Assembly: GCA_947623455.1 (NCBI GenBank)
Contig: OX392527.1
Location: 26,962,201-27,026,200 of the forward strand
Direction: 5' to 3'
Origin: Mimachlamys varia
Taxonomy: Eukaryota > Mollusca > Bivalvia > Pectinida > Pectinidae
DNA: 64,000 nt
Shown here: positions 4,500-53,186 of the stretch, piece by piece
Layout: every line of letters starts with the position of its first letter
Numbering within the stretch: the stretch's first letter is position 1
Notes under the pieces: model-generated
The model's database searches: none
The model's input: only the letters and a program-made list of their open reading frames with translations
Told to the model about the DNA's origin: nothing
Program-made: the position numbers and the translations under genes

Positions 4500-4587
4500 C
4501 ACAGGGGCCTGAGAATTTGTTACAGGTAATTGCATACCTTACCTGAGCTTAAATGGCCAGTGAAGGGGACATTTTTATCGAAAATTA
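4500..4587 (+). repeat. Left flank of the 27-bp minisatellite: shared repeat motifs
   Basis: Two motifs recur elsewhere in the window. 'cctgagaatttgttac' near 4508 reappears inverted at 7049-7062 and 53162-53176, and directly near 11655. 'catttttatcgaaaatt' (4570-4586) reappears at 53082-53098. This suggests a dispersed repeat hosting the minisatellite. Confidence 0.55.
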
Positions 4588-4593
4588 AAATCG

Positions 4594-7009
4594 ATCTAAC
4601 CGCATATAAGTCCCTGATCTGACCCAGATCATAAACGTCCCTGATCTGACCCAGATCATATACGTTCCTGATCTTACCAAGGACATATACGTCCCTGATC
4701 TAACCAACGACATATATGTCCCTGATCTAACCAATGACATATATGTCCCTAATCTAACCAAGGACATATACGTCGCTGGTCTAACCAAGGACATATACGT
4801 CCCTGATCTAACCAAGGACGTATACATCCCTGATCTGTCCAAGGACATATACGTCCCTGATCTGACCAAGGACATATACGTCCCTGATCTGACCAAGAAC
4901 ATATACGTCGCTGATCTGACCAAGGACATATATACGTCCCTAATCTAGCCAAGTACTTATACGTCTCTGGTTTAGCCAAGGACGTATACATCCCTGATCT
5001 GTCCAAGGACATATACGTCCCTGATCTAACCAAGGACATATATGTCCCTGATCTAACCAAGGACATTTACGTCCCTGATCTAACCAAGGACATATATGTC
5101 CCTGATCTAAACAAGGGCATATACGTCCCTGATCTAGCCAAGGACATATACGTCCCTGATCTAACCAAGGACATATTCGTCCCTGATCTAGCTAAGGACA
5201 TATACGTCGCTGATCTGACCAAGGACATATATGTCCCTGATCTAACCAACGACATATACGTCCCTGATCTAGTCAAGGACATATACGTCCCTGATCTGTC
5301 CAAGGATATATACGTCCCTGATCTAGCCAAGGACATATACGTCCCTGTTTTAGCCAAGGACATATACGTCCCTGATCTAGCCAAGGACATATACGTCCCT
5401 GATCTAACCAAGGACATATACATCCCTGATCTGTCCAAGGATATATACGTCCCTAATCTAACCAAGGACATATACGTCCCTGATCTAACCAAGGACATAT
5501 TCGTCCCTGATCTAACCAAGGACATATATACGTCCCTAATCTAGCCAAGTACTTATACGTCTCTGGTTTAGCCAAGGACATATACGTCCCTGATCTAACC
5601 AAGGACATATATGTCCCTGATCTAACCAGGGACATTTATGTCCCTGATCTAACCAAGGACATATATGTCGCTGATCTGACCAAGGACATATATACGTCCC
5701 TAATCTAGCCAAGTACGTATACGTCCCTGGTTTAGCCAAGGACATATACGTCCCTGATCTAACCAAGGACATATATGTCCCTGATCTAACCAAGGACATT
5801 TACGTCCCTGATCTAACCAAGGACATATACGTCCCTGATCTAGCCAAGAACATATACGTCCCTGATCTAACCAAGGACGTATACATCCCTGATCTAACCA
5901 AGGACGTATACATCCCTGATCTGTCCAAGGACATATACGTCCCTGATCTGACCAAGGACATATACGTCCCTGATCTGACCAAGAACATATACGTCGCTGA
6001 TCTGACCAAGGACATATATACGTCCCTAATCTAGCCAAGTACGTATACGTCCCTGGTTTAGCCAAGGACATATACGTCCCTGATCTAACCAAGGACATAT
6101 ATGTCCCTGATCTAACCAAGGACATTTACGTCCCTGATCTAACCAAGGACATTTACGTCCCTGATCTAACCAAGGACATATACGTCCCTGATCTAAACAA
6201 GGACATATACGTCCCTGATCTAGCCAAGGACATATACGTCCCTGATCTAACCAAGGACGTATACATCCCTGATCTGTCCAAGGACATATACGTCCCTGAT
6301 CTAACCAAGGACATATACGTCCCTGATCTGACCAAGAACATATACGTCGCTGATCTGACCAAGGACATATATACGTCCCTAATCTAGCCAAGTACTTATA
6401 CGTCCCTGGTTTAGCCAAGGACATATACGTCCCTGATCTAACCAAGGACATATATGTCCCTGATCTAACCAAGGACATTTACGTCCCTGATCTAACCAAG
6501 GACATATATGTCCCTGATCTAAACAAGGACATATACGTCCCTGATCTAGCCAAGGACATATACGTCCCTGATCTAACCAAGGACATATACGTCCCTGATC
6601 TAGCTAAGGACATATACGTCGCTGATCTGACCAAGGACATATATGTCCCTGATCTAACCAACGACATATACGTCCCTGATCTAGTCAAGGACATATACGT
6701 CCCTGATCTGTCCAAGGATATATACGTCCCTGATCTAACCAAGGACATATACGTCCATGATCTAACCAAGGACATATACGTCCCTGATCTAACCAAGGAC
6801 ATATACGTCCCTGATCTGTCCAAGGACATATACGTCCCTGATCTAACCAAGGACATATACGTCCCTGATCTGACCAAGAACATATACGTCCCTGATCTAA
6901 CCAAGGACATATACGTCCATGATCTAAACAAGGACATATACATCCCTGATCTGACCAAGAACATATACGTCCCTGATCTGTCCGAGGATATATACGTCCC
7001 TGATCTAAC
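4594..7009. repeat. 27-bp minisatellite, about 90 units
   Basis: The unit is a 20-bp near-palindrome, CAAGGACATATACGTCCCTG, followed by a heptamer, ATCTGAC or ATCTAAC. The array begins and ends with the heptamer 'atctaac' (4594-4600 and 7003-7009). The first units are degenerate ('ccagatcat...'). Variant 29-bp units ('gacatatata') start near 4925, 5521, 5685, 6011 and 6364 and shift the reading frame. Because the period is nine codons, long frames stay open on the - strand in two registers (MSLVRSGTY and ICPWLDQGR repeats). I regard these as non-coding. Confidence 0.95.
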
Positions 7010-7032
7010 CAATGACTAATATATGTCAGTTC

Positions 7033-7076
7033 ATGTCTAAAACTAGTTTAACAAATTATCAGGCCCTGTCCCTGTG
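7033..7076 (-). repeat. Right flank of the minisatellite: inverted shared motif
   Basis: 'aaaactagtttaacaaatta' followed by 'tcaggcc' and 'ccctgtg' is an inverted counterpart of the motif at 4500-4523. It is also closely similar to 53150-53186 at the right edge of the 20-kb satellite. Confidence 0.55.
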
Positions 7077-8509
7077 TTCAGGCGCCATAAAGTATATGAA
7101 TATGTGTGTATTTTCGCATAGCATACTACAGGCACTGCGTGTTTGCCGTGTTTGCAGTGAGTCCGCGTAATGATGAAAATCTGAAAGTATGACTTTGACC
7201 ACAGTATTACACTGTAAAGTTTTATAGGTGCTTTGACATTCATGTTATTTTATAGCTATACATGTATCATGCATTCAGAATAATATCAGATACACTTATA
7301 TATCTGTAACGTAACTTTATTTATCTCCAAGTACAATATGTACCATCACAAACTTAGATAGCAGCTCTAATGTAATTCTGTGGTACCATATATATCTGTA
7401 CCTTTAATTCTCTCAAGATTTAGTAATTGTATGCTCCCGTGTTCCATATCTTTCTGCCATTATTTTGTTTCTGTAACATAATTAACTCCTCCATGGATAG
7501 ATATATTGAACCATTACTTTGGTAATATATGTAGTTGTATGAAGACGCAAATCAGGTTCTGGCTATTAGTCTACTTAAAGCTAAAGTTACATCGCTGACA
7601 TTGGAGAGCCTTTTCTCAGACCAGTGTATATTGTATTCGCTGGTATGCCATTTGAGCACCAACAGCTTTTCACTGTAAAACTGACTTATAAAACTAACTA
7701 AGCACTATCATAGTGTCACACATTACATCACATGTTACAAATACAAGTATGAGTAAAATGTACATTGGTAATCAAGACCACTTGAAATTGTTGAAAAGCC
7801 TTAATTGTCATATTAGGATCAAACTTATGTGTCAATATCTGTCAGCAGCCTGTACCTGCAATTATAAGTAAAGGTCATACATGTATACGGTGTGATGACC
7901 TGTTCCCAACTAACAATCAGGGGCCCCGGGGTTATTATCAGGCCTTTTAACCTGATACAGGTTGACCAGGAGGAGTTGAGGCCTGGGGGGGGGGGTCTTT
8001 ATCTAATTAGACGGCCAAGTGTAAGCCTGTCTAAATCTTCACATCTGATCTGACCTGATACAGACACAACATTGAATAGGGAGGGGACGGACAACACCCA
8101 ATTATCAAAAGCCATTCATTGTTTATTGTGTTTTGAGGTTGTTGTAGTTTGAAAACTTTCAAATGTGAAGCAGTAATTCTTCTTCACGTTATACTTGAAT
8201 GTCTAATGTTTTAATTAAAATATAACAGTCTTATAACATTATATATCCATTCTGATCAACTAATTTTATAACACATTTCATACAAAGATTAAACAGCAGG
8301 CATAGTCTATATTGCTAGTTAAACAACTAAGTAATGACACTTTATATAAACATATACAGCAACAAATATATTGATTGATTGATTTAAAAAGATACATATA
8401 CATGTATATATATTTTGTACTATCTACAATTTAAAATGTAATATGGATGTGGCCCTATATGTAGAGTATTAATGCCTGATAGGACTTCAGGTAGACTTGG
8501 CGTGGACCA
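7077..8509. other. Intergenic, no gene seen
   Basis: AT-rich, with an 11-base G run at 7985-7995. No exon recognised. Confidence 0.4.
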
Positions 8510-10497: not shown

Positions 10498-10504
10498 CTT
10501 TTTA

Positions 10505-10524
10505 CAGGGACGTATATGTCCCTG
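10505..10524. mobile_element. Hairpin micro-element A (20 bp, 7-bp TSD)
   Basis: The palindrome CAGGGACGTATATGTCCCTG is flanked on both sides by exact 'cttttta' (10498-10504 and 10525-10531). The reverse complement of the element differs by one base from the 20-bp core of the minisatellite at 4594-7009. Confidence 0.8.
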
Positions 10525-10734
10525 CTTTTTAATTGAAAATAGTTACCGACATGCACTACTTTGTCTTTCAAATTGAAAAGGGGAACGCGGTTATATGCTC
10601 AATGATACATGTATAACTTTCCTGTCGCTATAGACTTAAACAAGAACAAAAATAATTTATATAGATGAAATGTACAAACAAAACTGTTTTCTCAAAAAGA
10701 AATTTCTCACATATACGTCCCTGATCGGTAGCAC

Positions 10735-10764
10735 CACGGACTTAGATAGCAATCTAAGTCCGTG
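10735..10764. mobile_element. Hairpin micro-element B (30 bp, 7-bp TSD)
   Basis: Arms 'cacggacttagat' and 'atctaagtccgtg' surround a 4-base loop. The exact 7-bp direct repeat 'gtagcac' flanks it (10728-10734 and 10765-10771). The arm sequence differs from element A, but the CA...TG ends and the duplication length are the same. Confidence 0.85.
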
Positions 10765-11377
10765 GTAGCACAGATTTTCTTTCAGTCGGCCTTTTTGATT
10801 AAAAGACCGGTAGCCACTATAGGTTTCGATTTGGTAAGCAGGTAGAAATGCTTCTAACCGTAATAATTTATTACCTGTGTGTCGTCGCTTTAATCTGTTA
10901 GCATACCCATGACTAGTGTTTTTTTATGACAAATACGTTTAGTTAGTTACGTGTTTAACGCCACTATTTACACAGATATATATCCGTGATACGACCGGCT
11001 TTGTCGTTATGATTCAGGAGACATTTATTTTCATACACTCATACATTCTTCCTATGTACATGTATCGTGGATATATTCATTCCTTATATGCTTCCGCTTT
11101 TGTATAACCGTCATCCGTAACATTTGCTTAGGATTTCCTCAGCACTTCCGTACCGTTTGCGTCTTATTTGGAACAGCGAACGTGTATGCCTCTGTACTTG
11201 TCTAGCCACGTATATATCATTTAGCCATGGGGCATAACGATACCTACATGTACCTGTGAATTAACAGGTAAAGTATTTACCAATATGTGTTACCTCTTAC
11301 CTGAATATGCCATAGCCAAAGTGCATTTATAACAGGTACTCCAGTGTAGTATGAATTAGATATTTAAAATGTTTTAC

Positions 11378-11389: not shown

Positions 11390-11398
11390 ACCTTACAT

Positions 11399-11429
11399 CA
11401 GAGACGTATAAAGGCTTAATACGTCTCTG
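11399..11429. mobile_element. Hairpin micro-element C (31 bp, 7-bp TSD)
   Basis: Arms 'cagagacgtat' and 'atacgtctctg' flank a short loop. The exact direct repeat 'cttacat' lies on both sides (11392-11398 and 11430-11436). Confidence 0.85.
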
Positions 11430-11436
11430 CTTACAT

Positions 11437-12758: not shown

Positions 12759-13070
12759 ACTTTCTCATACAAAGATCAATCCATAGCATGCCGAAAGTGT
12801 TCCGATGTATAGTAGCCACCTAAAAATGAAAATACTGAGTTGCCGGAGTTGTAGGTCTGACTATCTGCCTTAGTCTGACAAACTCCAACATATTAAGAAA
12901 CGACATCTTACATTATTTAGCTTGTATATCAGCGCACAACGAACAATTATAATCTTATTACTGTCTTGAATACATCGTCATTGGTCACCACTTGAATAGA
13001 CGCTATCGTTTTTGTTGTTCGATGTTGTCGCTTTGCTTCTCCGGATATAGACAGGATCGGTAGCTTAGCT

Positions 13071-13231
13071 CACAGTTGCTTGAGTTTCTGTCAGTAAATA
13101 AAATAAAATATATATATAGGCATAGGCCTATATATAAGGAACCCCCCCCCCCCCCATTATAGTAATGGGCGGTTCCTTATATATATAAAAAATATATATA
13201 TTATTTACTGACAGAAACTCAAGTAACTGTG
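13071..13231. mobile_element. Hairpin element D (161 bp, 7-bp TSD)
   Basis: Long arms begin 'cacagttgcttgagtttctg' and end with the near-exact complement 'cagaaactcaagtaactgtg'. An AT-rich inner inverted repeat ('tatataaggaacc' and 'ggttccttatata') surrounds a 14-base C run. The exact heptamer 'cttagct' flanks it (13064-13070 and 13232-13238). It has the same CA...TG ends and duplication length as the micro-elements nearby and could be their larger relative. Confidence 0.9.
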
Positions 13232-13238
13232 CTTAGCT

Positions 13239-14946: not shown

Positions 14947-15578
14947 GTAAAAACAATGGTTGCAGAATTATGATTTGGTTGAAATTGTTTATGAAGTTTT
15001 CTTTCATTTTGTTTTTCAATTACAAAGTATCTTCTTTTGTAGTTGGCGTAGTTTAACTTGGAAATATAAAAATAACATGTGAATTATATTTGTAAATATT
15101 GAAATAGTCTATACTCAGGTAAATACATGTAATGTTGTTTTAAGATCTTGGCTGAATGGGAATATAACACCTGTTGGGCAGTTTAGGTGTCAAGATGTAT
15201 TGTCACGCCCTGTCAAATTCATACCCGATCTGTCACAGTTAACAATTACATGTAGGACTATTAGTGAAGTTAAGCTTAGATAATTAACGTCGAACGAACG
15301 AACATCAACAGTAAAGTATATTTGTAGGCAAAACCAGCCAGTGGGCATCAAAACTGTAAGAATAGAACAATGGTTGTTTACAATCCGAGTTTGAAATACA
15401 AACTGTATTTGATATAAGTATGCGGACTGTACATGTTTTTTGCCCGTATATATTTACTGTAAGTAAATAGTAAAAACAAAAACAAACACAAACTATGTGC
15501 CATATATATAAGCATCGAGACAAGAAATAGGATTTCTGGCATAAAAGCAATGATGTTTTCTGACAAATTTAGACTGAT

Positions 15579-15607
15579 CAGAGACGTATATATGCCATAC
15601 GTCTCTG
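15579..15607. mobile_element. Hairpin micro-element F (29 bp)
   Basis: Arms 'cagagacgtat' and 'atacgtctctg'. The flanking heptamers are 'gactgat' (15572-15578) and 'gactgac' (15608-15614), matching at six of seven positions. Confidence 0.75.
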
Positions 15608-16331
15608 GACTGACAGATATCTCAATTTTAAAATAGCGTTAAAAAACGTTTTTGTGTGGAATCAATCAGATTGGATTACATGAATATGTTTAACAGATGA
15701 AGATATGCACAATTGATCATATATGTACGTTTCTCGTGTCAAGATGTGGTAGCAATTGAAACGGAAGTACTGAAGTGTGACGAGAATAGCGGTCCCGTGC
15801 GAGGCTTGTCAATCAACGCTTGGGAGGAGCATCGACCAATAGAAATCACGAAGAGCTCGCGATACCGTGTAATTGACAAGAAATCCAACTTATCAAAATG
15901 TTAGGTATGCAGATGATCCGATTCAGATACTAATTCTTCATTTGTATTTTATTGGACATCAGTACAGAATATACCGGATGCATGTCCACGAAAGATGTAA
16001 CAGTAAATAGTTAAAAGCTGATTGCTTTGGTTCTGAACCCTTTGAAGATGTACTTTTTACGATCGCTTGTGTTAACGCAAAGTCAGCCTCGGAGCTTGTT
16101 GGCTAATAGATTGAAATCGCTCTGTGATTGGCTAGCCATTTGAAGAGGTAACTTTGGAAAGAGGCGGGGCTTGGTGATACACCAAGTTATAGATACATGA
16201 TAAAGACAAAAAATCAGTAGGTTTTTTTATCGTCATCACTTGCTAGTTACACTTTCTTTATTCTGGGATAACGACTCGGAGAAAGAAAATTTAACAGTTT
16301 CACTTCCAAAAATGAAATTGATTAGTTGAAA

Positions 16332-16370
16332 CAGAGACGTATAAAGCCAGAGTGGCTTTATACGTCTCTG
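16332..16370. mobile_element. Hairpin micro-element G (39 bp, 7-bp TSD)
   Basis: Perfect 18-bp arms (cagagacgtataaagcca and its complement) around the 3-base loop 'gag'. The exact heptamer 'gttgaaa' flanks it (16325-16331 and 16371-16377). This is the cleanest member. Confidence 0.92.
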
Positions 16371-16444
16371 GTTGAAACATGAATATTTCCCGACATTATT
16401 CTCCGTGTCGTGTTATTCACCTGTAAACAAGAAGAAAACGAAAG

Positions 16445-21483: not shown

Positions 21484-30386
<8,903 letters not shown>

Positions 30387-33620: not shown

Positions 33621-36600
33621 ATGTACAATAGTACCATACCTACACCTTATACAACAGTGTACTATAGTACCATACCTAATACAACAGTGTACAATAGTAC
33701 CATACCTACACCTTATACAACAGTGTACAATAGTACCATACCTAATACAACAGTGTACAATAGTACCATACCTAATACAACAGTGTACAATAGTACCATA
33801 CCTTATACAACAGTTAACAATAGTACCATACCTAAACCTAATACAACAGTGTACAATAGTACCATACCTAAACCTAATACAACAGTGTACTATAGTACCA
33901 TACCTAATACAACAGTTTAAATAGTACCATACCTACACCTTATACAACAGTTAACAATAGTACCATACCTTATACAACAGTTAACAATAGTACCATACCT
34001 TACACAACAGTGTACAATAGTGCCATACCTTATCCAACTGTGCACAATAGAACCATACCTTATACAACAGTTAACAATAGTACCATACCTTATACAACAG
34101 TTAACAATAGTACCATACCTACACCTATTACAACAGTGTACAATAGTACCATACCTTATACAACAGTTAACAATAGTACCATACCTTATACAACAGTGTA
34201 CAATAGTACCATACTTAATACAACAGTGTACAATAGTACCATACCTTATAAAACAGTGTACAATAGTACCATACCTTATACAACAGTGTATAATAGTACC
34301 ATACCTTATACAACAGTGTACAATAGTACCATACCTACACCTAATACAACAGTGTACAATAGTGCCATACCTACACCTAATACAACAGTGTACAATAGTA
34401 CCATACCTTATACAACAGTTAACAATAGAACCATACCTAATACAACAGTGTACAATAGTACTATACCTAATACAACAGTGAACAATAGTACCATACCTTA
34501 TCCAACAGTGTACAATAGAACCATACCTACACCTTATACAACAGTGTACAATAGTACCATACCTTATTTGTACAATAGTACCATACCTTATACAACAGTG
34601 TACAATAGTATCATACCTTATACAACAGTGTACAATAGTACCATACCTTATACAACAGTGTACAATAGTACCATACCTTATACAACCGTGTACACTAGTA
34701 CCATACCTTATACAACCGTGTACAATAGTACCATACCTTATCCAACAGTGTACAATAGAACCATACCTTATACAACAGTGTACAATTGTACCATACCTAA
34801 TACAAGAGTGTACAATAGAACCATACCTACACCCTATAAAACAGTTAACAATAGTACCATACCTTATACAACAGTGTACAATAGTATCACACCTTATACA
34901 ACAGTGTACAATAGTATCATACCTAATACAACAGTGTACAATAGTACCATACCTAATACAACAGTGTACAATAGTACCATACCTAATACAACAGTGTACA
35001 ATAGTACCATACCTACACCTTATACAACAGTGTACAATAGTACCATACCTACACTTTAAACAACAGTGTACAATAGTATCATACCTTATACAACAGTGTA
35101 CAATAGAACCATACCTACACCTAATACAACAGTGTACAATAGTACCATACCTACACTTTATACAACAGTGTACAATAGTATCATACCTACACCTAATACA
35201 ACAGTGTACAATAGTACCATACCTAATACAACAGTGTACAATAGAACCATACCTACACTTTATACAACAGTGTACAATAGTATCATACCTACATCTAATA
35301 CAACAGTGTACAATAGTACCATACCTAATACAACAGTGTACAATAGTACCATACCTACTTCTTATACAACAGTGTACAATAGTATTATACCTTATACAAC
35401 AGTGTACAATAGAACCATACCTACACTTTATACAACAGTGTACAATAGTATCATACCTAATACAACAGTGTACAATAGTACCATACCTACACCTAATACA
35501 ACATTGTACAATAGTACCATACCTACACCTAATACAACATTGTACAATAGTACCATACCTACACCTAATACAACATTGTACAATAGTACCATACCTACAC
35601 CTTATACAACAGTGTACAATAGTACCATACCTACACCTAATACAACATTGTACAATAGTACCATACCTTATACAACACTGTACAATAGTACCATACCTAC
35701 ACCTTATACAACAGTGTACAATAGTACCATACCTTATACAACAGTGTACAATAGTACCATACCTACACCTTATACAACAGTGTACAATAGTACCATACCT
35801 ACACCTTATACAACAGTGTACAATAGTACCATACCTACACCTTATACAACAGTGTACAATAGTATCATACCTACACATTATACAACAGTGTACAATAGTA
35901 TCACACCTTATACAACAGTGTGCAATAGTACCATACCTAATACAACAGCGTACAATAGTACCATACCTTATACAACAGTGTACAATAGTATCATACCTTA
36001 TACAACAGTGTACAATAGTATCACACCTTATACAACAGTGTGCAATAGTACCATACCTCATACAACAGCGTACAATAGAATCATACCTTATACAACAGTG
36101 TACAATAGTATCATACCTTATACAACAGTGTACAATAATATCATACCTTATACAACAGTGTACAATAGTATCATACCTTATACAACAGTGTACAATAGTA
36201 TCATACCTTATACAACAGTGTACAATAGTATCATACCTTATACAACAGCGTACAATAGTACCATACCTTATACAACAGTGTACAATAGTACCATACCTTA
36301 TGCAACAGTGTGCAATAGTACCATACCTAATACAACAGCGTACAATAGTACCATACCTTATACAACAGTTTACAATAGAACCATACCTAATACAACAGTG
36401 TACAATAGTACCATACCTACACCTAATACAACAGTGTACAATAGTATCATACCTTATACAACAGTGTGCAATAGTACCATACCTTATTCAACAGTATGCA
36501 ATAGTACCATACCTAATACAACAGTGTACAATAGTACCATACCTACACCTAATACAACAGTGTACAATAGTATCATACCTTATACAACAGTGTGCAATAG

Positions 36601-39600
36601 TACCATACCTAATACAACAGTGTACAATAGTACCATACTTAATACAACAGTGTGCAATAGTACCATACCTAATACAACAGCGTACAATAGTACCATACCT
36701 TATTCAACAGTATGCAATAGTACCATACCTAATACAACAGTGTACATTAGTACCATACCTACACCTAATACAACAGTGTACAATAGTATCATACCTTATA
36801 CAACAGTGTGCAATAGTACCATACCTAATACAACAGTGTACAATAGTACCATACCTACACCTAATACAACAGTGTACAATAGTATCATACCTTATACAAC
36901 TGTGTTCAATAGTACCATACCTACACCTAATACAACAGTGTACAATAGTATCATACCTTATACAACAGTGTACAATAGTACCATACCTAATACAACAGTG
37001 TACAATAGTACCATACCTACACCTAATACAACAGTGTACAATAGTACCATACCTACACCTAATACAACAATGTACAAGAGTACCATACCTACACCTAATA
37101 CAACATTGTACAATAGTACCATACCTACACATTATACAACAGTGTACAATAGTATCACACCTTATACAACAGTGTACAATAGTATCATACCTAATACAAC
37201 AGTGTACAATAGTACCATACCTACACCTAATACAACATTGTACAATAGTACCATACCTACACCTAATACAACATTGTACAATAGTACCATACCTACACCT
37301 AATACAACATTGTACAATAGTACCATACCTACACCTTATACAACAGTGTACAATAGTATCACACCTTATACAACAGTGTGCAATAGTACCATACCTAATA
37401 CAACAGCGTACAATAGTACCATACCTTATACAACAGTGTACAATAGTACCATACCTACACCTAATACAACATTGTACAATAGTACCATACCTTATACAAC
37501 ACTGTACAATAGTACCATACCTACACCTTATACAACAGTGTACAATAGTACCATACCTTATACAACAGTGTACAATAGTACCATACCTACACATTATACA
37601 ACAGTGTATAATAGTATCACACCTTATACAACAGTGTACAATAGTACCATACCTACACCTTATACAACAGTGTACAATAGTACCATACCTACACCTGATA
37701 CAACAGTGTACAATAGTACCATACCTACACCTTATACAACAGTGTACAATAGTATCATACCTACACATTATACAACAGTGTACAATAGTATCACACCTTA
37801 TACAACAGTGTGCAATAGTACCATACCCAATACAACAGCGTACAATAGTACCATACCTTATACAACAGTGTACAATAGTATCATACCTTATACAACAGTG
37901 TACAATAGTATCACACCTTATACAACAGTGTGCAATAGTACCATACCTTATACAACAGCGTACAATAGTATCATACCTTATACAACAGTGTACAATAGTA
38001 TCATACCTTATACAACAGTGTACAATAGTATCATACCTTATACAACAGTGTACAATAGTATCATACCTTATACAACAGTGTACAATAGTATCATACCTTA
38101 TACAACAGTGTACAATAGTATCATACCTTATACAACAGTGTACAATAGTATCATACCTTATACAACAGCGTACAATAGTACCATACCTTATACAACAGTG
38201 TACAATAGTACCATACCTTATACAACAGTGTGCAATAGTACCATACCTAATACAACAGCGTACAATAGTACCATACCTTATACAACAGTTTACAATAGAA
38301 CCATACCTAATACAACAGTGTACAATAGTACCATACCTACACCTTATACAACAGTGTACAATAGTATCATACCTTATACAACAGTGTGCAATAGTACCAT
38401 ACCTTATTCAACAGTATGCAATAGTACCATACCTAATACAACAGTGTACAATAGTACCATACCTACACCTAATACAACAGTGTACAATAGTATCATACCT
38501 TATACAACAGTGTGCAATAGTACCATACCTAATACAACAGTGTACAATAGTACCATACTTAATACAACAGTGTGCAATAGTACCATACCTAATACAACAG
38601 CGTACAATAGTACCATACCTTATTCAACAGTATGCAATAGTACCATACCTAATACAACAGTGTACATTAGTACCATACCTACACCTAATACAACAGTGTA
38701 CAATAGTATCATACCTTATACAACAGTGTGCAATAGTACCATACCTAATACAACAGTGTACAATAGTACCATTCCTACACCTAATACAACAGTGTACAAT
38801 AGTATCATACCTTATACAACAGTGTTCAATAGTACCATACCTACACCTAATACAACAGTGTACAATAGTATCATACCTTATACAACAGTGTACAATAGTA
38901 CCATACCTAATACAACAGTGTACAATAGTACCATACCTACACCTAATACAACAGTGTACAATAGTACCATACCTACACCTAATACAACAAAGTACAAGAG
39001 TACCATACCTACACCTAATACAACATTGTACAATAGTACCATACCTACACATTATACAACAGTGTACAATAGTATCACACCTTATACAACAGTGTACAAT
39101 AGTATCATACCTAATACAACAGTGTACAATAGTACCATACCTACACCTAATACAACATTGTACAATAGTACCATACCTACACCTAATACAACATTGTACA
39201 ATAGTACCATACCTTCACCTAATACAACATTGTACAATAGTACCATACCTACACCTTATACAACATTGTACAATAGTATCACACCTTATACAACAGTGTG
39301 CAATAGTACCATACCTAATACAACAGCGTACAATAGTACCATACCTTATACAACAGTGTACAATAGTACCATACCTACACCTAATACAACATTGTACAAT
39401 AGTACCATACCTTATACAACACTGTACAATAGTACCATACCTACACCTTATACAACAGTGTACAATAGTACCATACCTTATACAACAGTGTACAATAGTA
39501 CCATACCTACACATTATACAACAGTGTATAATAGTATCACACCTTATACAACAGTGTACAATAGTACCATACCTACACCTTATACAACAGTGTACAATAG

Positions 39601-42600
39601 TACCATACCTACACCTTATACAACAGTGTACAATAGTACCATACCTACACCTTATACAACAGTGTACAATAGTATCATACCTACACATTATACAACAGTG
39701 TACAATAGTATCACACCTTATACAACAGTGTGCAATAGTACCATACCTAATACAACAGCGTACAATAGTAAAATACCTTATACAACAGTGTACAATAGTA
39801 TCATACCTTATACAACAGTGTACAATAGTATCACACCTTATACAACAGTGTGCAATAGTACCATACCTTATACAACAGCGTACAATAGTATCATACCTTA
39901 TACAACAGTGTACAATAGTATCATACCTTATACAACAGTGTACAATAGTATCATACCTTATACAACAGTGTACAATAGTATCATACCTTATACAACAGTG
40001 TACAATAGTATCATACCTTATACAACAGTGTACAATAGTATCATACCTTATACAACAGTGTACAATAGTATCATACCTTATACAACAGCGTACAATAGTA
40101 CCATACCTTATACAACAGTGTACAATAGTACCATACCTTATACAACAGTGTGCAATAGTACCATACCTAATACAACAGCGTACAATAGTACCATACCTTA
40201 TACAACAGTTTACAATAGAACCATACCTAATACAACAGTGTACAATAGTACCATACCTACACCTAATACAACAGTGTACAATAGTATCATACCTTATACA
40301 ACAGTGTGCAATAGTACCATACCTTATTCAACAGTATGCAATAGTACCATACCTAATACAACAGTGTACAATAGTACCATACCTACACCTAATACAACAG
40401 TGTACAATAGTATCATACCTTATACAACAGTGTACAATAGTACCATACCTAATACAACAGTGTACAATAGTACCATACTTAATACAACAGTGTGCAATAG
40501 TACCATACCTAATACAACAGCGTACAATAGTACCATACCTTATTCAACAGTATGCAATAGTACCATACCTAATACAACAGTGTACATTAGTACCATACCT
40601 ACACCTAATACAACAGTGTACAATAGTATCATACCTTATACAACAGTGTGCAATAGTACCATACCTAATACAACAGTGTACAATAGTACCATACCTACAC
40701 CTAATACAACAGTGTACAATAGTATCATACCTTATACAACAGTGTTCAATAGTACCATACCTACACCTAATACAACAGTGTACAATAGTATCATACCTTA
40801 TACAACAGTGTACAATAGTACCATACCTAATACAACAGTGTACAATAGTACCATACCTACACCTTATACAACAGTGTGCAATAGTACCATACCTAATACA
40901 ACAGTGTACAATAGTACCATACCTACACCTAATACAACAGTGTACAATAGTATCATACCTTATACAACAGTGTACAATAGTACCATACCTACACATTATA
41001 CAACAGTGTACAATAGTATCACACCTTATACAACAGTGTACAATAGTATCATACCTAATAAAACAGTGTACAATAGTATCATACCTTATACAACAGTGTA
41101 CAATAGTACCATACCTACACATTATACAACAGTGTACAATAGTATCACACCTTATACAACAGTGTACAATAGTATCATACCTAATAAAACAGTGTACAAT
41201 AGTATCATACCTTATACAACAGTGTACAATAGTACCATACCTAATACAACAGTGTACAATAGTACCATACCTTATACAACAGTGTACAATAGTATCACAC
41301 CTTATACAACAGTGTACAATAGTAGCACACCTTATACAACAGTGTACAATAGTATCACACCTTATACAACAGTGTACAATAGTATCACACCTTATACAAC
41401 AGTGTACAATAGTATCATACCTAATACAACAGTGTACAATAGTACCATACCTACACCTTATACAACAGTGTACAATAGTATTATACCTTATACAACAGTG
41501 TACAATAGTACCATACCTACACATTATACAACAGTGTACAATAGTATCACACCTTATACAACAGTGTACAATAATATCATACCCAATACAACAGTGTACA
41601 ATAGTATCATACCTTATACAACAGTGTACAATAGTACCATACCTAATACAATAGTGTACAATAGTACCATACCTTATACAACAGTGTACAATAGTATCAC
41701 ACCTTATACAACAGTGTACAATAGTATCATACCTAATACAACAGTGTACAATAGTACCATACCTTATACAACAGTGTACAATAGTATCACACCTTATGCA
41801 ACAGTGTACAATAGTATCACACCTTATAAAACAGTGTACAATAGTATCACACCTTATACAACAGTGTACAATAGTATCACACCTTATACAACAGTGTACA
41901 ATAGTATCACACCTTATACAACAGTGTACAATAGTATCACATCTTATACAACAGTGTACAATAGTATCATACCTAATACAACAGTGTACAATAGTACCAT
42001 ACCTTATACAACAGTGTACAATAGTATCACACCTTATACAACAGTGTACAATAGTATCACACCTTATAAAACAGTGTACAATAGTATCACACCTTATAAA
42101 ACAGTGTACAATAGTATCACACCTTATACAACAGTGTACAATAGTATCACACCTTATACAACAGTGTACAATAGTATCACACCTTATACAACAGTGTACA
42201 ATAGTATCACACCTTATACAACAGTGTACAATAGTATCACACATTATACAACAGTGTACTATAGTATCACACCTTATAAAACAGTGTACAATAGTATCAC
42301 ACCTTATAAAACAGTGTACAATAGTATCACACCTTATACAACAGTGTACAATAGTATCACACCTTATACAACAGTGTACAATAGTATCACACCTTATACA
42401 ACAGTGTACAATAGTACCATACCTTATACAACAGTGTACAATAGTACCATACCTTATACAACATTGTACAATAGTACCATACCTTATACAACAGTGTAGA
42501 ATAGTACCATACATTATACAACAGTGTACAATAGTACCATACCTACACCTTATACAACATTGTACAATAGTACCATACCTTATACAACAGTGTACAATAG

Positions 42601-45600
42601 TACCATACCTACACCTTATACAACAGTGTACAATAGTACCATACCTACACATTATACAACAGTGTACAATAGTACCATACCTACACCTTATACAACATTG
42701 TACAATAGTTTCATACCTTATACAACAGTGTACAATAGTACCATACCTAATACAACAGTGTACAATAGTACCATACCTTATACAACAGTGTACAATAGTA
42801 CCATACCTTATACAACAGTGTACAATAGTACCATACCTACACATTATACAACAGTGTACAATAGTATCCCACCTTATACAACAGTGTACAATAGTATCAT
42901 ACCTAATACAACAGTGTACAATAGTACCATACCTACACCTAATACAACAATGTACAAGAGTACCATACCTACACCTAATACAACATTGTACAATAGTACC
43001 ATACCTACACATTATACAACAGTGTACAATAGTATCACACCTTATACAACAGTGTACAATAGTATCATACCTAATACAACAGTGTACAATAGTACCATAC
43101 CTACACCTAATACAACATTGTACAATAGTACCATACCTACACCAAATACAACATTGTACAATAGTACCATACCTACACCTAATACAACATTGTACAATAG
43201 TACCATACCTACACCTTATACAACAGTGTACAATAGTACCATACCTACACCTAATACAACATTGTACAATAGTACCATACCTTATACAACACTGTACAAT
43301 AGTACCATACCTACACCTTATACAACAGTGTACAATAGTACCATACCTTATACAACAGTGTACAATAGTACCATACCTACACATTATACAACAGTGTATA
43401 ATAGTCTCACACCTTATACAACAGTGTACAATAGTACCATACCTACACCTTATACAACAGTGTACAATAGTACCATACCTACACCTTATACAACAGTGTA
43501 CAATAGTACCATACCTACACCTTATACAACAGTGTACAATAGTATCATACCTACACATTATACAACAGTGTACAATAGTATCACACCTTATACAACAGTG
43601 TGCAATAGTACCATACCTAATACAACAGCGTACAATAGTACCATACCTTATACAACAGTGTACAATAGTATCATACCTTATACAACAGTGTACAATAGTA
43701 TCACACCTTATACAACAGTGTGCAATAGTACTATACCTTATACAACAGCGTACAATAGTATCATACCTTATACAACAGTGTACAATAGTATCATACCTTA
43801 TACAACAGTGTACAATAGTATCATACCTTATGCAACAGTGTACAATAGTATCATACCTTATACAACAGTGTACAATAGTATCATACCTTATACAACAGTG
43901 TACAATAGTATCATACCTTATACAACAGTGTACAATAGTATCATACCTTATACAACAGCGTACAATAGTACCATACCTTATACAACAGTGTACAACAGTA
44001 CCATACCTTATACAACAGTGTGCAATAGTTCCATACCTAATACAACAGCGTACAATAGTACCATACCTTATACAACAGTTTACAATAGAACCATACCTAA
44101 TACAACAGTGTACAATAGTACCATACCTACACCTAATACAACAGTGTACAATAGTATCATACCTTATACAACAGTGTGCAATAGTACCATACCTTATTCA
44201 ACAGTATGCAATAGTACCATACCTAATACAACAGTGTACAATAGTACCATACCTACACCTAATTCAACAGTGTACACTAGTATCATACCTTATACAACAG
44301 TGTGCAATAGTACCATACCTAATACAACAGTGTACAATAGTACCATACTTAATACAACAGTGTGCAATAGTACCATACCTAATACAACAGCGTACAATAG
44401 TACCATACCTTATTCAACAGTATGCAATAGTACCATACCTAATACAACAGTGTACAATAGTACCATACCTACACTGATACAACAGTGTACAATAGTATCA
44501 TACCTTATACAACAGTGTGCAATAGTACCATACCTAATACAACAGTGTACAATAGTACCATACCTACACCTAATACAACAGTGTACAATAGTATCATACT
44601 TTATACAACAGTGTACAATAGTACCATACCTACACCTAATACAACAGTGTACAATAGTATCATACCTTATACAACAGTGTACAATAGTACCATACCTTAT
44701 ACAACAGTGTACAATAGTACCATACCTACACCTTATACAACAGTGTACAATAGTACCATACCTTATACAACAGTGTACAATAGTACCATACCTACACCTT
44801 ATACAACAGTGTACAATAGTACCATACCTACACATTATACAACAGTGTACAATAGTACCATACCTACACCTTATACAACATTGTACAATAGTTTCATACC
44901 TTATACAACAGTGTACAATAGTACCATACCTAATACAACAGTGTACAATAGTACCATACCTTATACAACAGTGTACAATAGTACCATACCTTATACAACA
45001 GTGTACAATAGTACCATACCTACACATTATACAACAGTGTACAATAGTATCCCACCTTATACAACAGTGTACAATAGTATCATACCTAATACAACAGTGT
45101 ACAATAGTACCATACCTACACCTAATACAACAATGTACAGGAGTACCATACCTACACCTAATACAACATTGTACAATAGTACCATACCTACACATTATAC
45201 AACAGTGTACAATAGTATCACACCTTATACAACAGTGTACAATAGTATCATACCTAATACAACAGTGTACAATAGTACCATACCTACACCTAATACAACA
45301 TTGTACAATAGTACCATACCTACACCTAATACAACATTGTACAATAGTACCATACCTACACCTAATACAACATTGTACAATAGTACCATACCTACACCTT
45401 ATACAACAGTGTACAATAGTACCATACCTACACCTAATACAACATTGTACAATAGTACCATACCTTATACAACACTGTACAATAGTACCATACCTACACC
45501 TTATACAACAGTGTACAATAGTACCATACCTTATACAACAGTGTACAATAGTACCATACCTACACCTTATACAACAGTGTACAATAGTACCATACCTACA

Positions 45601-48600
45601 CCTTATACAACAGTGTACAATAGTACCATACCTACACCTTATACAACAGTGTACAATAGTATCATACCTACACATTATACAACAGTGTACAATAGTATCA
45701 CACCTTATACAACAGTGTGCAATAGTACCATACCTAATACAACAGCGTACAATAGTACCATACCTTATACAACAGTGTACAATAGTATCATACCTTATAC
45801 AACAGTGTACAATAGTATCACACCTTATACAACAGTGTGCAATAGTACCATACCTTATACAACAGCGTACAATAGAATCATACCTTATACAACAGTGTAC
45901 AATAGTATCATACCTTATACAACAGTGTACAATAGTATCATACCTTATACAACAGTGTACAATAGTATCATACCTTATACAACAGTGTACAATAGTATCA
46001 TACCTTATACAACAGTGTACAATAGCATCATACCTTATACAACAGTGTACAATAGTATCATACCTTATACAACAGCGTACAATAGTACCATACCTTATAC
46101 AACAGTGTACAATAGTACCATACCTTATACAACAGTGTGCAATAGTACCATACCTAATACAACAGCGTACAATAGTACCATACCTTATACAACAGTTTAC
46201 AATAGAACCATACCTAATACAACAGTGTACAATAGTACCATACCTACACCTAATACAACAGTGTACAATAGTATCATACCTTATACAACAGTGTGCAATA
46301 GTACCATACCTTATTCAACAGTATGCAATAGTACCATACCTAATACAACAGTGTACAATAGTACCATACCTACACCTAATACAACAGTGTACAATAGTAT
46401 CATACCTTATACAACAGTGTGCAATAGTACCATACCTAATACAACAGTGTACAATAGTACCATACTTAATACAACAGTGTGCAATAGTACCATACCTAAT
46501 ACAACAGCGTACAATAGTACCATACCTTATTCAACAGTATGCAATAGTACCATACCTAATACAACAGTGTACATTAGTACCATACCTACACCTAATACAA
46601 CAGTGTACAATAGTATCATACCTTATACAACAGTGTGCAATAGTACCATACCTAATACAACAGTGTACAATAGTACCATACCTACACCTAATACAACAGT
46701 GTACAATAGTATCATACCTTATACAACAGTGTTCAATAGTACCATACCTACACCTAATACAACAGTGTACAATAGTATCACACCTTATACAACAGTGTAC
46801 AATAGTACCATACCTAATACAACAGTGTACAATAGTACCATACCTACACCTAATACAACAGTGTACAATAGTACCATACCTACACCTAATACAACAATGT
46901 ACAAGAGTACCATACCTACACCTAATACAACATTGTACAATAGTACCATACCTACACATTATACAACAGTGTACAATAGTATCACACCTTATACAACAGT
47001 GTACAATAGTATCATACCTAATACAACAGTGTACAATAGTACCATACCTACACCTAATACAACATTGTACAATAGTACCATACCTACACCTAATACAACA
47101 TTGTACAATAGTACCATACCTACACCTAATACAACATTGTACAATAGTACCATACCTACACCTTATACAACAGTGTACAATAGTATCACACCTTATACAA
47201 CAGTGTGCAATAGTACCATACCTAATACAACAGCGTACAATAGTACCATACCTTATACAACAGTGTACAATAGTACCATACCTACACCTAATACAACATT
47301 GTACAATAGTACCATACCTTATACAACACTGTACAATAGTACCATACCTACACCTTATACAACAGTGTACAATAGTACCATACCTTATACAACAGTGTAC
47401 AATAGTACCATACCTACACATTATACAACAGTGTATAATAGTATCACACCTTATACAACAGTGTACAATAGTACCATACCTACACCTTATACAACAGTGT
47501 ACAATAGTACCATACCTACACCTTATACAACAGTGTACAATAGTACCATACCTACACCTTATACAACAGTGTACAATAGTATCATACCTACACATTATAC
47601 AACAGTGTACAATAGTATCACACCTTATACAACAGTGTGCAATAGTACCATACCTAATACAACAGCGTACAATAGTACCATACCTTATACAACAGTGTAC
47701 AATAGTATCATACCTTATACAACAGTGTACAATAGTATCACACCTTATACAACAGTGTGCAATAGTACCATACCTTATACAACAGCGTACAATAGTATCA
47801 TACCTTATACAACAGTGTACAATAGTATCATACCTTATACAACAGTGTACAATAGTATCATACCTTATACAACAGTGTACAATAGTATCATACCTTATAC
47901 AACAGTGTACAATAGTATCATACCTTATACAACAGTGTACAATAGTATCATACCTTATACAACAGTGTACAATAGTATCATACCTTATACAACAGCGTAC
48001 AATAGTACCATACCTTATACAACAGTGTACAATAGTACCATACCTTATACAACAGTGTGCGATAGTACCATACCTAATACAACAGCGTACAATAGTACCA
48101 TACCTTATACAACAGTTTACAATAGAACCATACCTAATACAACAGTGTACAATAGTACCATACCTACACCTTATACAACAGTGTACAATAGTATCATACC
48201 TTATACAACAGTGTGCAATAGTACCATACCTTATTCAACAGTATGCAATAGTACCATACCTAATACAACAGTGTACAATAGTACCATACCTACACCTAAT
48301 ACAACAGTGTACAATAGTATCATACCTTATACAACAGTGTGCAATAGTACCATACCTAATACAACAGTGTACAATAGTACCATACTTAATACAACAGTGT
48401 GCAATAGTACCATACCTAATACAACAGCGTACAATAGTACCATACCTTATTCAACAGTATGCAATAGTACCATACCTAATACAACAGTGTACATTAGTAC
48501 CATACCTACACCTAATACAACAGTGTACAATAGTATCATACCTTATACAACAGTGTGCAATAATACCATACCTAATACAACAGTGTACAATAGTACCATA

Positions 48601-51600
48601 CCTACACCTAATACAACAGTGTACAATAGTATCATACCTTATACAACAGTGTTCAATAGTACCATACCTACACCTAATACAACAGTGTACAATAGTATCA
48701 TACCTTATACAACAGTGTACAATAGTACCATACCTAATACAACAGTGTACAATAGTACCATACCTACACCTAATACAACAGTGTACAATAGTACCATACC
48801 TACACCTAATACAACAATGTACAAGAGTACCATACCTACACCTAATACAACATTGTACAATAGTACCATACCTACACATTATACAACAGTGTACAATAGT
48901 ATCACACCTTATACAACAGTGTACAATAGTATCATACCTAATACAACAGTGTACAATAGTACCATACCTACACCTAATACAACATTGTACAATAGTACCA
49001 TACCTACACCTAATACAACATTGTACAATAGTACCATACCTACACCTAATACAACATTGTACAATAGTACCATACCTACACCTTATACAACATTGTACAA
49101 TAGTATCACACCTTATACAACAGTGTGCAATAGTACCATACCTAATACAACAGCGTACAATAGTACCATACCTTATACAACAGTGTACAATAGTACCATA
49201 CCTACACCTAATACAACATTGTACAATAGTACCATACCTTATACAACACTGTACAATAGTACCATACCTACACCTTATACAACAGTGTACAATAGTACCA
49301 TACCTTATACAACAGTGTACAATAGTACCATACCTACACATTATACAACAGTGTATAATAGTATCACACCTTATACAACAGTGTACAATAGTACCATACC
49401 TACACCTTATACAACAGTGTACAATAGTACCATACCTACACCTTATACAACAGTGTACAATAGTACCATACCTACACCTTATACAACAGTGTACAATAGT
49501 ATCATACCTACACATTATACAACAGTGTACAATAGTATCACACCTTATACAACAGTGTGCAATAGTACCATACCTAATACAACAGCGTACAATAGTACCA
49601 TACCTTATACAACAGTGTACAATAGTATCATACCTTATACAACAGTGTACAATAGTATCACACCTTATACAACAGTGTGCAATAGTACCATACCTTATAC
49701 AACAGCGTACAATAGTATCATACCTTATACAACAGTGTACAATAGTATCATACCTTATACAACAGTGTACAATAGTATCATACCTTATACAACAGTGTAC
49801 AATAGTATCATACCTTATACAACAGTGTACAATAGTATCATACCTTATACAACAGTGTACAATAGTATCATACCTTATACAACAGTGTACAATAGTATCA
49901 TACCTTATACAACAGCGTACAATAGTACCATACCTTATACAACAGTGTACAATAGTACCATACCTTATACAACAGTGTGCAATAGTACCATACCTAATAC
50001 AACAGCGTACAATAGTACCATACCTTATACAACAGTTTACAATAGAACCATACCTAATACAACAGTGTACAATAGTACCATACCTACACCTAATACAACA
50101 GTGTACAATAGTATCATACCTTATACAACAGTGTGCAATAGTACCATACCTTATTCAACAGTATGCAATAGTACCATACCTAATACAACAGTGTACAATA
50201 GTACCATACCTACACCTAATACAACAGTGTACAATAGTATCATACCTTATACAACAGTGTACAATAGTACCATACCTAATACAACAGTGTACAATAGTAC
50301 CATACTTAATACAACAGTGTGCAATAGTACCATACCTAATACAACAGCGTACAATAGTACCATACCTTATTCAACAGTATGCAATAGTACCATACCTAAT
50401 ACAACAGTGTACATTAGTACCATACCTACACCTAATACAACAGTGTACAATAGTATCATACCTTATACAACAGTGTGCAATAGTACCATACCTAATACAA
50501 CAGTGTACAATAGTACCATACCTACACCTAATACAACAGTGTACAATAGTATCATACCTTATACAACAGTGTTCAATAGTACCATACCTACACCTAATAC
50601 AACAGTGTACAATAGTATCATACCTTATACAACAGTGTACAATAGTACCATACCTAATACAACAGTGTACAATAGTACCATACCTACACCTTATACAACA
50701 GTGTGCAATAGTACCATACCTAATACAACAGTGTACAATAGTACCATACCTACACCTAATACAACAGTGTACAATAGTATCATACCTTATACAACAGTGT
50801 ACAATAGTACCATACCTACACATTATACAACAGTGTACAATAGTATCACACCTTATACAACAGTGTACAATAGTATCATACATGTACCTAATAAAACAGT
50901 GTACAATAGTATCATACCTTATACAACAGTGTACAATAGTACCATACCTAATACAACAGTGTACAATAGTACCATACCTTATACAACAGTGTACAATAGT
51001 ATCACACCTTATACAACAGTGTACAATAGTAGCACACCTTATACAACAGTGTACAATAGTATCACACCTTATACAACAGTGTACAATAGTATCACACCTT
51101 ATACAACAGTGTACAAAAGTATCATACCTAATACAACAGTGTACAATAGTACCATACCTACACCTTATACAACAGTGTACAATAGTATCATACCCAATAC
51201 AACAGTGTACAATAGTATCATACCTTATACAACAGTGTACAATAGTACCATACCTAATACAACAGTGTACAATAGTACCATACCTTATACAACAGTGTAC
51301 AATAGTATCACACCTTATACAACAGTGTACAATAGTATCATACCTAATACAACAGTGTACAATAGTACCATACCTTATACAACAGTGTACAATAATATCA
51401 CACCTTATGCAACAGTGTACAATAGTATCACACCTTATAAAACAGTGTACAATAGTATCACACCTTATACAACAGTGTACAATAGTATCACACCTTATAC
51501 AACTGTGTACTATAGTATCACACCTTATACAACAGTGTACAATAGTATCACATCTTATACAACAGTGTACAATAGTATCATACCTAATACAACAGTGTAC

Positions 51601-52853
51601 AATAGTACCATACCTTATACAACAGTGTACAATAGTATCACACCTTATACAACAGTGTACAATAGTATCACACCTTATAAAACAGTGTACAATAGTATCA
51701 CACCTTATAAAACAGTGTACAATAGTATCACACCTTATACAACAGTGTACAATAGTATCACACCTTATACAACAGTGTACAATAGTATCACACCTTATAC
51801 AACAGTGTACAATAGTATCACACCTTATACAACAGTGTACAATAGTATCATACCTTATACAACAGTGTACAATAGTACCATACCTAATACAACAGTGTAC
51901 AATAGTACCATACCTACACCTAATACAACAGTGTACAATAGTACCATACCTACACCTATTACAACAGTGTACAATAGTACCATACCTACACCTAATACAA
52001 CAGTGTACAATAATACCTACACCTAATACAACAGTGTACAATAGTACCATACCTAATACAACAGTGTACAATAGTACCATACCTAATACAACAGTGTACA
52101 ATAGTACCATACCTTATACAACAGTGTACAATAGTATCACACCTTATACAACAGTGTACAATAGTATCATACCTAATACAACAGTGTACAATAGTACCAT
52201 ACCTTATACAACAGTGTCCAATAGTATCACACCTTATACAACAGTGTACAATAGTATCACACCTTATAAAACAGTGTACAATAGTACCACACCTTATAAA
52301 ACAGTGTACAATAGTATCACACCTTATACAACAGTGTACAATAGTATCACACCTTATACAACAGTGTACAATAGTATCACACCATATACAACAGTGTACA
52401 ATAGTATCACACCTTATACAACAGTGTACAATAGTATCATACCTTATACAACAGTGTACAATAGTATCATACCTAATACAACAGTGTACAATAGTACCAT
52501 ACCTACACCTAATACAACAGTGTACAATAGTACCATACCTAATACAACAGTGTACAATAGTACCATACCTAATACAACAGTGTACAATAGTACCATACCT
52601 ACACCTAATACAACAGTGTACAATAGTACCATACCTAATACAACAGTGTACAATAGTACCATACCTAATACAACAGTGTACAATAGTACCATACCTAATA
52701 CAACAGTGTACAATAGTACCATACCTAATACAACAGTGTACAATAGTACCATACCTTATACAACAGTGTACAATAGTACCATACCTAATACAACAGTGTA
52801 CAATAGTACCATACTTTATACAACCGTGTACACTAGTACCATACCTTATACAA
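33621..52853. repeat. Main 30/36-bp satellite array with higher-order structure
   Basis: About 19 kb of the 30-bp unit 'tacaacagtgtacaatagta' plus 'ccatacctta', and of a 36-bp form with an extra 'acctac'. Variants (tgcaat, acagcg, acattg, atcaca) are arranged in higher-order repeats. The landmark 'accttattcaacagtatgca' sits at 36481, 38401 and 40321, then 46308, 48228 and 50148, spaced exactly 1,920 bp within each triplet. The two triplets are offset by 9,827 bp. Another copy is at 44191. Because both unit lengths are multiples of three and lack stops in several frames, open frames up to 3,462 codons appear on both strands (YNSTIPYTTV, IQQCTIVPYL, RYGTIVHCCI). I judge them non-coding. Confidence 0.97.
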
Positions 52854-53146
52854 CGCGGGAGACGTTTTTTGAGGAAATTGAGATTATTTCTGCGGAAGGA
52901 GGATACGTTTGACTTGCATTTAATGGGTTTATGAAATAACAATTATCCATCTTTCCAACGGTACCAAGCGTTTTTTCGTACCTCAACTAGAAATGTGATT
53001 TTTGATGCAAGAAAGGTAGGTGGGGTCGATTTTTCGATCTGGAAAGCTTTCCACCCTTTAGCATTTATGACCATTGAGGGGCATTTTTATCGAAAATTGA
53101 TCTTAACCCCCCAAATGTGTAAAATTACTCTTAACACCCTATTTTA
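52854..53146. other. Right flank of the satellite
   Basis: Unique-looking sequence followed at 53082-53098 by 'catttttatcgaaaatt', which also lies at the left edge of the 27-bp minisatellite (4570-4586). No exon recognised. Confidence 0.5.
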
Positions 53147-53186
53147 GGTCCAAAACTAGCTGTAACAAATTCTCAGGTCCCTGTGG
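53147..53186 (-). repeat. Shared terminal motif next to the satellite
   Basis: 'aaaactagctgtaacaaatt' followed by 'ctcaggtccctgtgg' matches 7037-7076 at the right edge of the 27-bp minisatellite and is inverted relative to 4500-4523. Confidence 0.6.

Follow-up and report, generated by a model that had tools for sequence, protein, structure and literature searches.

How a minisatellite begins is difficult to observe, since expansion of the array erases the seed it grew from. The 64,000-nucleotide stretch of Mimachlamys varia DNA analysed here (the window) raises the question in concrete form. It contains a 27-bp tandem array for which the original prediction proposed a direct route from transposon insertion to minisatellite: a 20-bp transposing micro-element inserted with a 7-bp target duplication, both then being amplified together. 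Our analysis retains the insertion with its duplications and routes it through an excision footprint that was duplicated between two target copies. The window array is probably a tandemly amplified excision footprint together with its target duplication.

4594..7009, plus strand: 27-bp minisatellite of about 89 units, each a heptamer (mostly ATCTAAC) and a 20-bp hairpin core CAAGGACATATACGTCCCTG

Tandem Repeats Finder calls the array at 4603-7016 with period 27 and 89 copies, and reading it in heptamer phase shifts the limits to 4594 and 7009 with about the same number of units. Cutting the array at the heptamer yields 85 pieces, 71 with 20-bp cores and 5 with 22-bp cores; six others contain two units each, the heptamer between them being too degenerate, and three are edge pieces. 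ATCTAAC is found in 39 pieces, ATCTGAC in 15, ATCTAGC in 13 and ATCTGTC in 9, and the most frequent core is CAAGGACATATACGTCCCTG (25 of 85 pieces). The proposed split of the unit into a 20-bp CA...TG palindrome and a heptamer is thus correct, except that the palindrome is imperfect because 8 of its 10 positions pair. Compared with the reverse complement of element A (10505-10524), the core shows, as predicted, a single mismatch (19 of 20 bases matching); element A itself lies between two copies of CTTTTTA. A coding role of the array was considered and rejected; the nine-codon period keeps frames open in stretches and the 22-bp cores break them.

Element A is one of several single hairpins in the window that are enclosed by short direct repeats, and a lone transposon end lies close to it:

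10498..10531, no strand assigned: element A footprint, CTTTTTA + CAGGGACGTATATGTCCCTG (10505-10524) + CTTTTTA
10705..10723, minus-strand reading: lone full 19-nt transposon end CAGGGACGTATATGTGAGA
10728..10771, no strand assigned: third-family footprint, GTAGCAC + 30 bp (10735-10764) + GTAGCAC
11392..11436, no strand assigned: family B footprint, CTTACAT + 31 bp (11399-11429) + CTTACAT
15572..15614, no strand assigned: family B-like footprint, GACTGAT + 29 bp (15579-15607) + GACTGAC, 6 of 7 bases matching
16325..16377, no strand assigned: family B footprint, GTTGAAA + 39 bp (16332-16370) + GTTGAAA

No partner for the 19-nt end was found within the window. The 39-bp hairpin at 16332-16370 consists of 21 nt of one parental end and 18 nt of the other. 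Outside arrays the window has 34,178 bases; in these, exact direct repeats of 5, 6, 7, 8 and 9 bases enclose 0, 0, 4, 0 and 0 CA..TG hairpins, respectively, and none with 7-bp repeats arose in 100 second-order Markov simulations. When the CA..TG condition is dropped, 4 hairpins with 7-bp repeats compare with a simulated mean of 0.11. An excess then also appears at lengths 5 (6 vs 1.64), 6 (4 vs 0.55) and 8 (2 vs 0.04), derived in part from low-complexity and tandem sequence. Transposons of the hAT type generate 8-bp target duplications; assignment of the hairpins to this group was rejected, their duplications being 7 bp long and CA..TG hairpins flanked by 8-bp repeats numbering zero in the window. 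A longer inverted-repeat element of 161 bp (CACAGTTGCTTGAG...) at 13064-13238 lies between two copies of CTTAGCT, also a 7-bp duplication.

The remainder of the window is rich in tandem sequence. A 19-kb array of period 30 (33644-52854) can be read on both strands for thousands of codons without a stop; such frames need not be genes because the period is divisible by three. Long arrays of periods 35 and 15 occupy 25630-28737 and 60437-64000. A Pfam search of seven window ORFs returned nothing beyond one trypsin-like coding fragment (22771-23148, PF00089, E 1.1e-14), which points to animal DNA, and two viral_contigs scans gave 0 matches.

To investigate the distribution of the hairpins, we searched the genome (975.3 Mb in 71 contigs). 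The 20-mer hairpin pattern occurs at 486 exact places and its reversed control at none. Among 15 distinct places read (from 17 rows, L012 and L013 overlapping), 11 show perfect 7-bp duplications, one matches at 6/7, one at 5/7 and two at 3/7, one of the latter (L004) becoming perfect if one spare base is allowed. Single copies of the 20-mer with 7-bp duplications are thus dispersed through the genome, in line with the expectation. A looser pattern with the outer 9 positions fixed gave 2286 places and no control matches. Across 35 places, drawn from the looser-pattern list and a few further 20-mers, 15 duplications are perfect, 8 match at 6/7 and 12 match at fewer bases. The last group counts against a footprint origin, and five of its members belong to a single locus, present in repeated copies with a spare base. 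One place (L069) fits an 8-bp duplication; in the window and at most places read the length is 7 bp.

The source of the hairpins is visible in the same genome. The 19-nt end CAGGGACGTATATGTGAGA occurs at 1107 exact places, some of them convergent pairs. Six of seven examined pairs delimit elements of 2.6-3.1 kb with perfect 7-bp duplications, and the seventh (L048, 1.5 kb) has a duplication matching at 2/7. The six parents are 97-99% alike in the main alignments, carry identical 33-bp terminal inverted repeats (TIRs), have internal tandem repeats in common and contain no open frame longer than 129 aa; they therefore appear, from these sequences, to be a young non-autonomous family (family A). 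The internal tandem repeats, of about 212 bp, vary in copy number between the parent elements (L046-L052). Family B (CAGAGACGTATAAAGCCAGAGATTGGCAACTC) has a similar make-up. Inspection of printed flanks showed perfect 7-bp duplications at 3 of 5 family B end pairs, 6/7 at L098 and none at L090/L091. Family B hairpins retain up to 21 nt of an end, and 24 nt in L094, a hairpin without clear duplication.

Most family A hairpins are the start of the TIR joined to the reverse complement of the TIR start. Of 49 distinct family A contexts, 41 have duplications of at least 6/7 (30 perfect), representing 40 events once identical contexts and copies sharing duplication and hairpin are merged; one spare base was allowed, lengths were limited to 14-60 bp, and one event (L083) sits inside an array. 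The ends overlap in 22 events, meet bluntly in 3 and are separated by 1 to 20 bp of filler in 15, so that lengths range between 14 and 50 bp and joins are of many kinds, the 20-mer alone recurring often. Four-nucleotide microhomology between two identical family A ends predicts products of 14, 20 (symmetric) and 22 bp, and all three were found with duplications. No event retains more than 19 parental nt per side and eight retain exactly 19. Thirty loci were chosen for holding the 19-nt end, which biases the share of 19-nt tips; the 35 places chosen on outer bases alone show the same maximum.

The hairpins are best explained as excision footprints and not as transposons, because their interiors are not constant: at different sites the two tips of a single long parent are joined differently, with at most 19 nt per side. 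A MITE or micro-transposon would be recognized by an interior and a length conserved across sites, and the hairpins show no such conservation. The claim that the 20-mer is a transposing micro-element was thus not upheld. Were the hairpin itself a minute non-autonomous transposon, generating 7-bp duplications on insertion and tandemly amplified from one such insertion, this would account for the asymmetric form of the 20-mer at about ten distinct duplications outside arrays and for its frequency (42 of 50 listed places), which exceeds the prediction from simple end overlap. We nevertheless regard it as quite unlikely. The 20-mer belongs to a broad set of end joins from a known parental TIR, interiors are unconserved, some 20-mers (L001, L002, element A) travel within larger repeats instead of marking new insertions, and deleted fly P elements are described as requiring 138 and 216 bp of terminal sequence for mobility (PMC1562414). 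Short internal-deletion derivatives, produced by interrupted gap repair after excision and not by direct end joining, would likewise place TIR tips between intact duplications and could supply fillers of up to 20 bp. This origin, which would seed the array identically, gives no reason to stop at 19 nt, a limit exceeded in none of the 40 events (14-60 bp), and we consider it unlikely.

The asymmetric 20-mer is the least well explained of the footprints. It makes up 42 of 50 listed 20-mer places (486 in total), the symmetric form accounting for the other 8, and at its junction two standard ends overlap by GT only. Such over-representation without good reason counts against the footprint model. 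An origin from G and A variant ends via a 7-nt overlap was weakened as a candidate by the rarity of the variant A end (46 exact places vs 1107 standard ends). Snap-back synthesis from a 15-nt tail would also yield this form, which we offer only as a suggestion. Part of the excess comes from copies carried along by larger repeats, as with element A, L001 and L002, which have flanks in common. That the 20-bp hairpin is now mobile itself, either as a minimal substrate or through copying by template switching into new 7-bp sites, is very unlikely; it retains some standing because about ten distinct target duplications go beyond what end overlap predicts. If true, the hairpin would be an extremely small transposing unit.

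The array heptamer was compared with the target preference of the transposon. Forty-eight duplications gave the consensus GTWNWAC, the array heptamer ATCTAAC being left out when the target matrix was built. On this matrix ATCTAAC falls in the 98.6-98.9th percentile of random window heptamers, and it is the best-fitting of the 27 seven-base stretches in the circular unit. Judged by this fit, the predicted identity of the heptamer is supported: it behaves as a target-site duplication.

A second, independent array, built on a different footprint, supports the same plan. We searched for a hairpin end, 3-20 bases and a hairpin start, and found 99 genome places against 2 in the control. The number found in this way is a lower bound, since an array whose hairpin ends have mutated, as in the window, escapes the pattern. 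Of 65 listed places, a single array at C4:18.161-18.164 Mb accounts for 64, each with a 7-base spacer, and the remaining one (C2:29450028) has a spacer of 13. The C4 unit is ACTGTAC + CAGGGACGTCCTCTCACATATACGTCCCTG, its period of 37 corresponding to a 30-bp footprint plus 7, so that the proposed search for other minisatellites of period hairpin plus 7 was successful. Coordinates indicate about 94 units, and both ends were read: on the left GCTGTAC immediately precedes ACTGTAC and the core, and on the right the core is followed by ATTGTAC and CAAACTCCC. ACTGTAC is the best-fitting of the 37 stretches of the unit, the identical duplication L062 being excluded from the matrix. The core is a lopsided footprint of 21 nt (or 19 + 2) of one end and 9 nt of the other, and retention of 21 nt (or 19 + 2) counts against the footprint model. 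In a third array (L097, C2:50063600-50063990) a 31-bp family B hairpin recurs with period 71-72, and CCTATAC stands on both sides of the last hairpin; hairpin plus 7 is therefore not the sole outcome, which also counts against the model. Independent slippage within the host repeat, with a coincidental or secondary likeness to the hairpins, would suit the unclean right border of the window array and the frequent start of minisatellites inside repeats. It is exceedingly improbable, since the core matches at 19/20 a dispersed hairpin that has 486 exact relatives, the unit is precisely one hairpin plus 7, the heptamer fits the target consensus, and a second array follows an equal plan.

The array sits inside a diverged copy of an abundant repeat with the ends CACAGGG...CCCTGTG, here called the host repeat:

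4500..4593, plus strand: left part of the diverged host repeat (CACAGGGGCCTGAGAATTTGTTACAG ... TATCGAAAATTAAAATCG)
4594..4600, plus strand: first heptamer ATCTAAC, a clean left border against the host repeat
7003..7009, plus strand: last heptamer ATCTAAC, then CAATGAC
7018..7076, plus strand: right part of the diverged host repeat, terminating ...CTAGTTTAACAAATTATCAGGCCCTGTCCCTGTG
53029..53185, plus strand: host-repeat copy without array, GATCTTAAC once at the position of the array in the other copy

The array had been said to start and end with the heptamer. This holds on the left, where the same border is found in four other young copies and in one diverged paralog, and is weaker evidence on the right, where the last heptamer may belong to a partial unit. 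The CAATGAC that follows may be host sequence or part of a unit; the window reads ATCTAAC CAATGACTAATATATG and the diverged paralog ends CCCTG AT TCAATATATC. This blurred border counts against a footprint-derived origin. Six distinct array-free host-repeat copies were read. Four contain GATCTTAAC once (53098 in the window, L011 = L041, L004 and L099), the other two GATCTACC (L034) and GATCAGCC (L024), and none has an exact ATCTAAC at the array site. GATCTTAAC is one base longer than GATCTAAC, which, like the two copies that read otherwise, again counts against the model. These copies are paralogs and show the site without array, not the ancestral allele; no single-footprint allele of the window array site was seen. 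Single footprints do occur at other sites of the genome. In L099 the host-repeat copy comes with an 8-bp duplication, GTCTCGGA; the corresponding position of the window, 3338, is unoccupied. An independent 20-bp footprint between two TCTCAAA lies a few bases downstream in the L004 copy.

The array has since spread. Its right flank (7018-7300) has 195 candidate copies in the genome, and the 40 of these that were scored are 98-100% identical and distributed over 17 contigs. At all 10 right-flank junctions read the array is present with an identical right border, and the array is therefore older than the spread of its carrier repeat. Five young copies, the window included, contain 65, 85, 89, 91 and 92 units behind identical left borders, and the diverged, older paralog, which lies at a distance of 668 kb and is 94.5% alike across 1.2 kb, has about 31. 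The interval 3342-12239 matches other genome places piecewise. A large carrier repeat holding the array and several footprints is likely; it is predicted from the copies, and its ends were not found.

Combining these observations, we propose the following origin. A cut-and-paste transposon with 7-bp duplications (ends CAGGGACGTATATGTGAGA..., target GTWNWAC) would have inserted at ATCTAAC in a host-repeat copy. Its transposase, like P transposase, would cut one strand well inside the TIR, and excision would thus leave the first nucleotides of both ends between two target copies. End joining would close the gap to give ATCTAAC, a 20-bp hairpin footprint and ATCTAAC. Slippage or unequal exchange between the 7-bp direct repeats would then duplicate the footprint with one heptamer, the 27-bp unit would expand to tens of copies, and a larger, recently amplified repeat would later distribute the array widely. 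Footprints, parents, target consensus, a second array of equal plan and length variation between copies are all directly observed, while we infer where the transposase cuts, how the break is repaired, the slippage step and the P type of the transposase.

The footprints share their anatomy with excision products of the Drosophila P element. P transposase cleaves 17 nt inside the terminal repeat (PMC7776569), and end-joined P{wa} excision products in flies are described with an 8-bp duplication, at most 17 nt per end and a short overlap or AT-rich filler, one junction recurring in up to 14 isolates (PMC2895639 and its Table 1). Scallop footprints have the same order of target duplication, TIR tips, short overlap or AT-rich filler (for example the 50-mer in L011/L041) and target duplication. 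They differ from the Drosophila products as given in that source in having duplications of 7 instead of 8 bp and in retaining as many as 19 nt (21 in one core) where the fly products retain at most 17, and in being natural, present at thousands of places and in two cases turned into arrays. The 7-8 bp target duplications typical of the P superfamily occur in 6 of 7 family A pairs and 3 of 5 family B end pairs. Galileo, a P-superfamily element of Drosophila, is reported to make 7-bp duplications at the palindromic target consensus GTAGTAC (PMC2775673), which scores in the 99.8-99.9th percentile of random window heptamers on the scallop matrix; the comparison with Galileo covers duplications and target. 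The P-type transposase RNase H family PF21787 has 24 matches in the genome, all above cut-off, and none in 14 control genomes. An inverted pair of CAGGGACG ends was absent from 8 of the 24 P-type loci within stretches of 5.3-6.9 kb, where ends farther out would be missed. By analogy, the transposon may thus work like a P element, yet we do not file it as a member of the group because no transposase with matching ends was found in the stretches examined.

Two of the P-type transposase genes (L116, L117) have open frames of 841 aa; their copies agree at 99.6% over 6.8 kb, are adjoined by another long open frame (596-606 aa) and apparently belong to a larger, recently copied element. P-type transposase element copies at L118 and L119 start at CACAGGGGCTCGG, which resembles the host-repeat ends (CACAGGG...); judging by these ends, the host repeat may be P-like too.

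One genome holds the stages of minisatellite birth side by side: the parent transposon, its scars in the thousands, and two arrays with a period of scar plus duplication. The short flanking repeats required by the slippage model thereby gain a named natural source, and the footprints record, naturally and on a large scale, how the germline joins ends at transposon breaks. The proposal predicts that other transposons leaving their tips between target duplications give rise to arrays whose period is the footprint plus the duplication length.

Haber and Louis (1998, cited in PMC6947457) proposed that short direct repeats around a motif seed minisatellites; in that account a motif flanked by direct repeats of 5-10 bp is duplicated with one repeat and expands. 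Both arrays described here have units of this type, a motif and one flanking direct repeat (20 + 7 in the window, 30 + 7 on C4), and go beyond the model in that motif and repeats have a named source, an excision footprint and its target duplication. Transposons are known more generally as seeds of tandem repeats (PMC9659126, PMC6947457), and expansion of rejoined target duplications by slippage has been proposed (PMC9659126). We noticed no report of a minisatellite unit made of excision footprint and target duplication in the open-access PubMed Central literature, the scope of our search, with subscription journals outside it. In the cases reviewed in those two sources, as far as they are set out there, parts of elements or duplication dimers are amplified, whereas here the unit is a post-excision scar with one duplication.
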